Assembly (NCBI GenBank): GCA_005883575.1
Contig: VBFH01000022.1
Location: forward strand, 62,001-126,000
Origin: Chloroflexota bacterium
GTDB lineage: Bacteria > Chloroflexota > Dormibacteria > Dormibacterales > Dormibacteraceae
Reading direction: 5' to 3'
Length of the DNA stretch: 64,000 nucleotides
Shown here: positions 46,676 to 55,374 of the stretch, in pieces
Layout of the letters: each line of letters starts with the position of its first letter
Position numbering within the stretch: position 1 is the stretch's first letter
Made by a program: the position numbers and the translations under genes
The notes under the pieces: model-generated
What the model was told of the DNA's origin: nothing
Database searches by the model: none
What the model saw: only the letters and a program-made list of their open reading frames with translations

Positions 46676-46870
46676 CTAGACCCCGAGCGCCCGGCGCACC
46701 GTCTTGCGGTCCGCCTTGGACACCGGCTGCTGGTTCTCGTAGTTGCGCTTGCGCTTCTGGGACTTGTGCTCGAGGAGGTGGCTCTTGAACGCCGAGCGGC
46801 GCATCAGCTTGCCGTTCCGGGTGACCCGGATCCGCTTCGCGATCCCTTTCTGTGTCTTCAGCTTAGGCAC
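46676..46870 (-). CDS. rpmI: 50S ribosomal protein L35
   Basis: [42 protein letters not shown]. Confidence 0.97.
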
Positions 46871-47411
46871 TGGTCGCCTGCTGCTCCTTTACCGCTCCTT
46901 GGCGGTTTGGCGCGAGGATCATAAACAGGTTCTTGCCCTCGAGGAGAGGCTGGCGTTCGATGACCGCGAACTGCTTGGCGTCGTCCGCCACCCGTTCGAG
47001 GATCTTTCGCCCGATCTCCTGATGGACCATCTCGCGGCCCCTGAACATGATCGTCACCTTGACCTTCTCTCCTGCCTCGAGGAACTGCTTCAAACCTTTG
47101 AACTTGGTCTGGAAGTCGTGCTCCGCGACCTTCGGGCGGAGCTTCATCTCCTTCAGCTTGATGACGTTCTGCTTACGGCGCTGGTCTTTTTCCCGCTTGA
47201 CGGTCTCGAACTTGTAGCGTCCGTAGTCCATCAGGCGGCAGACCGGCGGGCTCGCTTGTGGCGCCACCTCGACGAGGTCGAGCCCTTTCTCGTTTGCGAT
47301 GCGAAGCGCGGCGTCCAGGGAGAGTACGCCTAGCTGGTTGTTCTGGTCGTCGATCAGTCGCACTTCGGAGCTGCGGATCTGATCGTTGATCCTCAGCTCT
47401 TTAAACGGTAT
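46863..47411 (-). CDS. infC: Translation initiation factor IF-3
   Basis: In-frame from ATA at 47411: (ATA)PFKELRINDQIRSSEVRLIDDQNNQLGVLS; SD GAGGT 8 nt upstream; ORF-track GTG at 47363 truncates the conserved RINDQIR segment. Confidence 0.95.
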   Translation of the reverse strand: MPFKELRINDQIRSSEVRLIDDQNNQLGVLSLDAALRIANEKGLDLVEVAPQASPPVCRLMDYGRYKFETVKREKDQRRKQNVIKLKEMKLRPKVAEHDFQTKFKGLKQFLEAGEKVKVTIMFRGREMVHQEIGRKILERVADDAKQFAVIERQPLLEGKNLFMILAPNRQGAVKEQQATSA

Positions 47412-51363: not shown

Positions 51364-52209
51364 TTAACGATCGAGCCCCGGGTTGAATGCGCGGTAGACC
51401 GCTTCCCATTCGGGAATGGTCAGCGTCTGCGGGCGCCGAGAAGCGTCGATTCCAAGGTCAGTAAGCCGGGTCGCGGCTTCACCGCTCGAGATCCCGACCT
51501 GGCGCCCGAGCGTGCCGCCGAGCTGCTTGCGCCGAAACTGGAACACCGATTCGACAAAGCGCAGGAAGTTACCCACGTCGGCCACTCCCACGGCCGGCTT
51601 CGGCCTGACCTCGAGAATCACAAGCGCTGAGTCGACCCGGGGTGGCGGCGTGAAGGATGCGGCCGGGATCGTCATCACCGTCCGCGCCTCGGCGAAGACC
51701 TGGACCGCGATCGTGGCGAGGCTCGCGGCGGCATTGCCTGTCCATCGCGCGGCGACCTCTTTCTGCACCACCAATGAAAGGCGCCGCGGCCGCGGCGGGT
51801 GGTCGAGGAGCTTCGGGATCAGGGCGCCAGTCAGGTTGTAGGGGATGTTGCCGGCCACGATCTCGCCGCCACCGGCAAATGCGCCCGCGACATCGAACCG
51901 AAGGATGTCGGCCTGCACCACCTCGACGTTCCCGTGTTGCCCCACAACCTCACGCAGAGCGGGAATCAGCTTGCGGTCGAACTCGACCGCGACGAGGCGA
52001 CGGCAGCGCCCGGCCAGGGCGATGGTCAGCGTGCCCACGCCGGCGCCGACCTCGAGGATCTCATCGTCCTGAGTCCCGCCGGCCGCCTCCGCGATCGCAT
52101 CCCGCAGGGCGGGGTCGATCAGAAAGTTCTGGCCGAGTCGGTGCTGGAGTGTGATCCGGTGGCGACGCAGGAGGGGTTCGAGTTCTCCCGCACTCGCGGG
52201 ATCGATCAC
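51364..52209 (-). CDS. rsmA: 16S rRNA (adenine1518/1519-N6) dimethyltransferase RsmA/KsgA
   Basis: HRITLQHRLGQNFLIDPALRDAIAEAAG...EVGAGVGTLTIALA...VAGNIPYNLTG. Confidence 0.96.
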   Translation of the reverse strand: MIDPASAGELEPLLRRHRITLQHRLGQNFLIDPALRDAIAEAAGGTQDDEILEVGAGVGTLTIALAGRCRRLVAVEFDRKLIPALREVVGQHGNVEVVQADILRFDVAGAFAGGGEIVAGNIPYNLTGALIPKLLDHPPRPRRLSLVVQKEVAARWTGNAAASLATIAVQVFAEARTVMTIPAASFTPPPRVDSALVILEVRPKPAVGVADVGNFLRFVESVFQFRRKQLGGTLGRQVGISSGEAATRLTDLGIDASRRPQTLTIPEWEAVYRAFNPGLDR

Positions 52210-52955
52210 CTCATCTTTTGGAAGAGGGTGATCGCGTTGGCTCGCTCCTGGTCGGCTAGCTGCTCGACGGTGATGCCGCGCAGGTCCGCCACAAGCTCCG
52301 CCGTGTCGACCAGGTATGCCGGCCGGTTGGGCACGCCCATCCGTTTCTGGGAGTTCCCGTACGGCGAGTCTGTCTCGAGCAGGATGCGGTCCGCCGGGCA
52401 CCGTTTGACGACCTCCCGCAGCGCGTCTCGGCTGGGCCTTGTGATCAACCCCGCAAAAGAAAGGTAGAAGCCGACCTCGAGGAATCGCTGTGCCCAGTCC
52501 CAATCCATGGCGAAGTAGTGCATCACGCCGCGGATCCCGTGGTGCGCGGAGATCGCGGTCAGCAGCTCCTCAGCCGCACCGCGGTTGTGGATCGACACCG
52601 GCAGGTCGTGCTCGGTCGCGAGGGAGAACATCTCGTTCAGGCGCTGGATCTGGAGATCGCGGTGCGGCCCGCCGACATGCTCGAAATCGAGCCCGATTTC
52701 GCCGACGACCACGACCATCTCGTCCTTCGCCATCTGGCTGAGCGTGGCAAGGTCCGGTTCTGAAATCTCGAGCGGGTGATGCCCAACGCCGGCCCAGACC
52801 TCCTCGTAGGCATGACCCAGCGAGACGGCGTTGCTGCTGCGGTCGAGGTTGACCCCGACTGCGATGAGCCGCGTGACTCCCGCGGCCACCGCTTCCTGCA
52901 CCACCTCCGTGGCGTCGCCCAGCTCCTCGATGTGGAGGTGCGTGTCGACGAAGAT
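52206..52955 (-). CDS. tatD: TatD family metal-dependent hydrolase
   Basis: Upstream in-frame (ATC)FVDTHLHIEELGDATEVVQEAVAAG begins immediately after the metG TAA in the same frame; GEIGLDF, LLETDSPY motifs. Confidence 0.93.
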   Translation of the reverse strand: MFVDTHLHIEELGDATEVVQEAVAAGVTRLIAVGVNLDRSSNAVSLGHAYEEVWAGVGHHPLEISEPDLATLSQMAKDEMVVVVGEIGLDFEHVGGPHRDLQIQRLNEMFSLATEHDLPVSIHNRGAAEELLTAISAHHGIRGVMHYFAMDWDWAQRFLEVGFYLSFAGLITRPSRDALREVVKRCPADRILLETDSPYGNSQKRMGVPNRPAYLVDTAELVADLRGITVEQLADQERANAITLFQKMR

Positions 52956-54683
52956 TTAGGCCAGCTCCTCGGGCACGTCGTCGAGCCGCTTGAAGAGCGG
53001 CTCTGGTGCGGGCAGCTTGCGTCCGGGCGTCAGGTCCGATGGTCGCCAGCGATCGACTGCCTCATAGTCGCCGGTGATCACCGTGTGCGACGCCGCGTCC
53101 TCTGCGAACTGGCGGACGATCGGTTGCGGCGCAATGACATCGTCGTATCCGAGCATGGCGTGCAACCGCTGCGACGAGAACGGCAGGAACGGCGTGAGCA
53201 TCGTCTTCAGGTTGTCAACGCAGCGCAGCGCCACGTACAGCACCGTACCGGCGCGCTGCCGGTCGGACTTGATGGTGTGCCACGGCTGCTCCGTGCCGAG
53301 GTAAACGTTCACCTTGGCCGCGATTCCCATGGCGTGCTTCAGCGCGTTCTGGAACCGTGCCTCCTGCAGCTGCTGCGCGACATCGTCGAGCGAAGTCTCC
53401 ACTTCCTCGATCAAGGTTCGATCGCCGACCGTGAGGTCACCAGGCTCCGGGACAGAGCCAAAGTTCCGGTGCGCGTTCACCAGCGTCCGATGCACCAGAT
53501 TGCCCCACGTCGCGACCAGCTCGTCGTTGTTGCGGCGGATGAATTCAGCCCAGGTGAAGTCGGTGTCCTGGTTTTCGGGACCGGCGATCATGAGGTAATA
53601 GCGAAGCGCATCCGGGTCGTAGCGCTCGAGCATGTCCCTGACGTAGACCACGTGGCCTCGGCTCGTCGACAACCGTTTGCCTTCCATGTGCAAGTGCTCG
53701 CTGGCCACGATCTCGTCCGGCAGGTGGAGTCCGCCCACGCCCAGGAGGATGGCAGGCCAGATGACGGTGTGAAACGTGATGTTGTCCTTGCCCATCGTGT
53801 AGTAGTGGCGGCTGTCGGGGTTCTCCCACCACACCCTCCACGCGTCCGGCTCGCCGCGCTGGATCGCCCACTCGATCGACGCCGACAGGTAGCCCATCAC
53901 GGCGTCGAACCAGACGTAGATCTTCTTGTGCGGGTTGTCTTCCCAGCCCGGCAGCGGCACCGGCACCCCCCAGTCGAGGTCACGGGTGATCGCGCGCGGC
54001 TTCAGCTTCGCAACAAACTCCAGTGAGTACTTGCGGACATTGGTCCGCCAGTCGTGGTGCCGCTCGATCCATGCTCGCAACTGGTCGCCGAACGCCGGCA
54101 AATCGAAGAAGAAATGCTCGGTCTCACGAAACTCGACCGGCGCGTCGCTGCCTCTCTGGTGAGGGTTGATGAGATCAATCGGGTCGAGCTGGTTGCCGCA
54201 GTTGTCGCACTGGTCACCACGCGCTTCCATGTAGCCGCAGATCGGGCATCTGCCTTCGATGTAGCGGTCTGGCAGCGTGCGTCCGGTGGCGGCATCGAAA
54301 GCACCCATCTGCTTCCGCTTGACGAGGTAGTTCTTTTCGTAGAGCTTGAGGAAGAGGTCTTGCGTCACGCGGTAGTGATTGGCGGTCGTCGTCCGCGTGA
54401 AGATGTCGTAGGTCATCCCGAGGCGCACCAGGTCGTCGACGATGAGCGCGTTGTTATGGTCGACGAACTCTTTCGGTTCGATGCCTTGCCTGTCGGCCTC
54501 GTAGGTGATGGGCGTGCCGTGCTCGTCGGTGCCGCTGGCCATCAAAACCCGCGAACCGCGCAGCCGTTCGAATCGCGCGAGCACGTCCGCGGGCACCGCG
54601 AAACCGACCACGTGGCCGATGTGGCGCGGCCCGTTCGCGTACGGCCACGCCGGAGCGATGAGCACCGTTCTTATTTCAGGCAC
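52956..54683 (-). CDS. metG: Methionyl-tRNA synthetase
   Basis: [33 protein letters not shown]...[19 protein letters not shown]-terminal EMAP domain absent. Confidence 0.96.
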
Positions 54684-55374
54684 CGGAGATGACAAGCGTA
54701 AACTCGCCGCGCGCGCGGTCACCGAGCGCCGCCAGCACCTCCGACGCTGTTCCGCGCAGCACCTCTTCGTGCACCTTGGTCAGCTCGCGCGTCAACGTTA
54801 GGCTGCGCTCGGGCAGCGACTCGGCGATCAAACCCAGCGACTTCTGGACTCGGTACGGCGACTCGAACGCCACCGCAGGGCGCGGATCTTCGCGAAGCGA
54901 TGCCAGCAGCCGACGCATCTGGCCCGGCTTGCGCGGCAGGTAGCCGAGGAACGTGAACCCGGGTCCCCCGTACCCCGCGATGGAGAGCGCGGCGGTGATC
55001 GAGCTTGGTCCGGGGATCGGAACCACAGTGTGCCCCGCGGCCCAGGCCGCGGTGACGAGCGCCTGCCCGGGGTCGGAAAGAGTCGGCGTGCCCGCGTCGC
55101 TCACCAGGGCCACGTCGCCTTCGTCGAGGGCGGCCAGCACGCGCGGCAGGCCGCGGCGCTCGACCGGGGCGCGGTAGCTCAACAGCGGTTTGCGAATCCC
55201 ATGGCGGGCGAGCAAGCGCGAAGTCACCCTTGTGTCCTCGGCCGCGATCGCCGTCACCTCGGAGAGGACACGGAGAGACCTTGCGCTCATGTCCTCGAGA
55301 TTGCCGATCGGGGTTGCGACTACATAGAGCCGGCTCGTCTCTGCGCTCCCGGCCTTCGGCCGACCTCCCCACAC
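54676..55374 (-). CDS. rsmI: 16S rRNA (cytidine1402-2'-O)-methyltransferase RsmI
   Basis: [45 protein letters not shown]; start uncertain. Confidence 0.95.

Follow-up and report, generated by a model that had tools for sequence, protein, structure and literature searches.

The metG–tatD junction

The window analysed here is a stretch of 64,000 nucleotides within a 224-kb contig (C86) of a draft genome; among named records, its closest relatives are soil MAGs deposited as Chloroflexi or Candidatus Dormibacterota. Its minus strand carries metG, encoding methionyl-tRNA synthetase, followed directly by tatD. The features at this junction, in window positions, are:

52956..54683, minus strand: metG, methionyl-tRNA synthetase, the upstream gene, with a GTG start (TIGR00398, 488.8 bits, over the cut-off)
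52965..52970, minus strand: Shine-Dalgarno (SD) sequence GAGGAG in the 3' end of metG, 9 nt from the ATC (sequence; anti-SD duplex)
52956..52958, minus strand: TAA stop of metG, in frame with tatD and adjoining the ATC (sequence)
52953..52955, minus strand: putative ATC initiation codon of tatD (sequence; ortholog start column)
52902..52904, minus strand: first canonical start, a GTG at codon 18, rejected as the start (downstream of HxH; not conserved)
52206..52955, minus strand: tatD coding sequence, 249 amino acids from the ATC, TatD-family metal-dependent nuclease (PF01026, TIGR00010, PDB 1j6o/2gzx)

Around the junction the minus strand reads GTG CCC GAG GAG CTG GCC TAA ATC TTC GTC GAC ACG CAC CTC CAC. 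The original prediction had placed the metG TAA and the tatD ATC directly next to each other in one frame, with GAGGAG 9 nt upstream, and both statements hold on this sequence. Likewise, the earliest ATG, GTG or TTG does lie past the DTHLH motif and within the TatD domain: it is the GTG at 52904, codon 18. The start column of metG itself is GTG in relatives.

Read from the ATC, the tatD product matches PF01026 over its full length (213 bits, positions 1-253), with the profile match beginning at codon 3, and scores 188.7 bits against TIGR00010, under the cut-off of 206. Both the TatD_DNase domain and the N-terminal HxH metal motif of the family are present, the latter at codons 6 and 8, and H6 and H8 are invariant. 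In 2gzx, a TatD relative of solved structure, Met1 pairs with tatD codon 1, a one-position extrapolation from an alignment that starts at residue 2 in both sequences.

The tatD start column across relatives

We drew tatD orthologs from 60 relatives and named GTDB records, dropped duplicates, and anchored the loci on tblastn matches. This yielded a supported clade (100/99) of 30 loci, each from its own species, within Candidatus Dormibacterota. ATC occupies the window's start column in 22 of the 30 species and lies one codon earlier in three more (L149, L156 and L157). The column is ATG in L135 and GTG in L164, both members of the genus and nested among ATC species; the remaining clade loci comprise a probable CTG start (L158), a TTG at codon 2 (L165), and one locus in no class (L019). 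L164 is sister to L142, in which a metG TAG directly precedes the ATC (support 100/100), indicating that this one column can switch between a canonical start and ATC. In the same family outside this clade, tatD starts are mostly ATG, GTG or TTG, with L029 not assigned among them.

Recovery of ATC in the same column from 22 distinct species ruled out a sequencing error or chance. The clade that keeps it spans TatD identities down to about 60%. Since ATC makes up 90% of the isoleucine codons of these genes, its strict use over other Ile codons adds little in itself; what the column holds is a conserved near-cognate codon where no canonical start is available. On this comparison, the AUC start has persisted over much of the history of the family. 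Separately, in four loci of class family f3 (L251, L252, L253 and L256), tatD has an apparent CTG start overlapping a metG TGA (CTGATCGATTCGCAC); a canonical start is absent nearby, and ATC is an alternative.

Codon columns were compared in 24 aligned orthologs (codon 1 being ATC in 22, ATG in one and GTG in one). Across codons 2-9, 84% of differing pairs were synonymous, and changes fell at the third position 733 times versus 139 and 46 at the other two. In the eight codons before the ATC, synonymous differences made up 10%, positional bias was absent, and stops were present. The coding signal thus starts at codon 2. No in-frame ATG, GTG or TTG occurs within 27 codons upstream at any ATC locus. 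Together, the start column, the signature from codon 2, the lack of a conserved alternative and the pairing with 2gzx Met1 support the earlier proposal that ATC is the tatD initiator.

That proposal had leaned on the abutting in-frame metG stop as the upstream limit. The stop is real in the window, but it is not a conserved feature, recurring independently only in L142. The position of the metG end varies among relatives, between 5 nt short of tatD and 10 nt into it. It is 0 for the window and L142 and -4 or -5 for L138, L139, L140 and L143; most others have +10, a 10-nt overlap in another frame. At nearly all ATC loci the metG stop falls within -5 to +10 of the ATC. ATC is kept at metG ends of -5, -4, 0 and +10, so the metG reading frame is not what maintains it. 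Read-through of the metG TAA, producing TatD as a MetG-TatD fusion, would be in frame in the window and L142, yet we regard it as extremely improbable and refuted as a general mechanism, since in most ATC-bearing relatives metG ends out of the tatD frame (+10, -4 or -5) and read-through cannot yield TatD, and since the tatD frame upstream of the ATC contains stops and has no coding signature.

Translation of a shorter TatD from the GTG at codon 18 (or from codon 19) is also highly improbable. This GTG is the first canonical codon, and a default ORF call begins there. However, a start at codon 18 would drop the D-T-H-L-H metal motif together with strand 1, and codons 2-17 are under protein-level constraint. 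Nor is the GTG conserved: it is replaced by GTC in 6 of the 24 orthologs, and the first 20 tatD codons of L145 include no canonical start.

Shine-Dalgarno sequences, initiator tRNA and other start codons

The GAGGAG upstream of tatD is supplied by Glu-Glu codons of metG, and its duplex with the anti-SD, GGATCACCTCCTTT, which was verified in the 16S of six relatives, amounts to -9.7 kcal/mol. The mean SD duplex was -10.1 kcal/mol at 25 ATC starts versus -6.6 at nine canonical or other starts, a contrast between related loci that is uncorrected for kinship and indicative only. Within that limit, strong SDs appear to offset the weak codon at the tatD ATC starts. Comparison across species thus shows, at the level of sequence, an AUC start codon that is conserved and accompanied by strong SDs.

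The initiator tRNA (L056) is ordinary, with anticodon CAU, a C1-A72 mismatch and a GGG/CCC anticodon stem. We therefore rejected an altered initiator tRNA pairing with AUC, there being no other initiator-like tRNA among those found in this incomplete genome. Neither tRNA-Ile(GAU) nor 16S was found in the MAG, which leaves some room for a special initiator tRNA encoded in its unassembled parts. As a separate observation, tRNA-Val(TAC) at L033 and L098 has a duplicated stretch in the anticodon arm (CGCCTCGCTTACACCGAGGAGG repeated). IF3 is present, conserved and ordinary-looking, and its gene lies 5.5 kb downstream of tatD:

46863..47411, minus strand: infC (IF3), with an ATA start at 47409-47411 (TIGR00168, 220.8 bits)

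In the infC start column (window and loci L063-L092), the genus has ATA, other genera and family f2 have ATC, and the genomes read from class family f3 (e.g. L063, L067-L070 and L072) apparently have ACG. An in-frame stop (TAA) lies just upstream of this column in many relatives. An ACG start for infC was not found in the literature searched.

Start codons elsewhere were surveyed by comparing the whole 224-kb contig with nine relatives, a crude screen covering about 6% of the genome. Among 222 conserved frames, 113 genes had a clear, ortholog-supported canonical start column, the codons in these columns being ATG (294), GTG (263) and TTG (92). Conserved non-canonical starts were limited to tatD (ATC) and infC (ATA). 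Most of the cases that the screen flagged had canonical starts nearby or proved to be conserved leaders or spurious frames overlapping other genes. A weaker candidate is rsmI (window 55336-55338, minus strand), with ACG where relatives have ATG or GTG, and CTG in two genomes (G007 and G022); an in-frame GTG upstream, at 55374, is a possible alternative. At about 13963, 58116 and 58378 in the window, TAGAAT/TAATAT -10-like boxes stand a few bases before several apparent gene starts; such boxes, in the window or in relatives, suggest leaderless transcripts.

The CAU initiator and the restriction of non-canonical starts to tatD and infC argue that the genetic code is not altered, and across this survey of about 6% of the genome we found no sign of a changed code or of changed general start rules. 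A generally relaxed selection of start codons in Dormibacterota would accommodate the ATA, ATC and ACG of infC, the ATC of tatD, the likely CTG of L158 and class family f3, and the rsmI ACG in the window. We consider it unlikely, however, given 113 genes with canonical columns on the contig, near-cognate exceptions that are few and mostly have alternatives, and an initiator tRNA and IF3 that look ordinary.

Probable initiation at AUC and comparison with known systems

The best explanation, and one that fits all the data, is weak near-cognate initiation combined with a strong SD and perhaps with ribosomes terminating on metG. The 30S subunit would be placed by the GAGGAG in the 3' end of metG, or would have just been freed from metG termination, and fMet-tRNA(CAU) would be set on AUC, which differs from AUG at the third base alone. 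Inefficient initiation there would leave TatD well below MetG. IF3 rejects near-cognate codons, so a shortage of IF3 is expected to raise TatD output, as with infC. We hold it very probable that tatD is translated in this way, by SD-driven initiation at AUC with the ordinary fMet-tRNA, giving low output that is probably IF3-sensitive. In terms of the protein, we infer fMet as the first residue and coupling to metG; with the AUC start, TatD is probably made in small amounts, and its production may be linked to IF3.

Alternatively, the AUC could be a relic that is tolerated and regulates nothing, metG coupling and a strong SD being sufficient that nothing selects for a change. The closeness of the metG stop to the ATC at nearly all ATC loci favors this view, as does the non-canonical initiation reported downstream of a termination site in E. 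coli with RRF inactivated (PMC2268962). Against it, the one-step change to ATG is easy and canonical starts arose at least twice (ATG and GTG), while ATC persists across so divergent a clade; moreover, S. aureus genes of like anatomy have measurably lower output (PMC13009471). We take this alternative seriously, although we lean against it. In Dormibacterota, tatD and infC could together make up a small group of IF3-responsive genes, with selectively maintained near-cognate starts and with metG termination feeding ribosomes to the AUC. We offer this extension tentatively and with rather more doubt than belief; were it true, TatD output would follow free IF3 and thus the state of the ribosomes.

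To our knowledge, very few bacterial genes with non-canonical starts have been characterised. Conserved examples are already known (infC, sigR, ccpN and cvfC1), and we found nothing on tatD with an ATC start, or on start codons in Dormibacterota, in the literature searched, so the tatD case is, as far as we found, unreported. It presents a clean example, from comparative genomics alone and from an uncultured phylum, of a start missed by ORF callers limited to ATG, GTG and TTG. It also suggests that start columns compared between species could reveal which genes are under IF3 discrimination.

The Streptomyces sigR gene has a GUC start repressed by IF3 (PMC5472188). Like tatD, it is a gene other than infC with a conserved non-canonical start that gene callers missed. 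It differs in its codon (GUC rather than AUC) and its product (a sigma factor rather than a nuclease), and it does not follow a gene whose stop it overlaps; for tatD, repression by IF3 would be expected by analogy. The E. coli pcnB gene has an inefficient AUU start that limits translation, according to Binns and Masters (2002) as cited in PMC13009471; on that citation, it parallels the limitation proposed for tatD, in another gene and with another codon. In S. aureus, ccpN (AUA) and cvfC1 (AUU) have starts measured by Ribo-Ret and reporters, and the weak codon is compensated by a strong or extended SD (PMC13009471). They share with tatD this pairing of a conserved non-canonical start with such an SD; the genes and codons are different, and no overlap with a preceding stop is described for them. 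Finally, infC, which starts with ATC in Streptomyces (PMC5472188), parallels tatD in that its AUU, AUC or AUA is a start near-cognate at the third base, as in the ATA start here. In infC, however, such a start lets IF3 act back on its own gene, whereas tatD is without such a loop.
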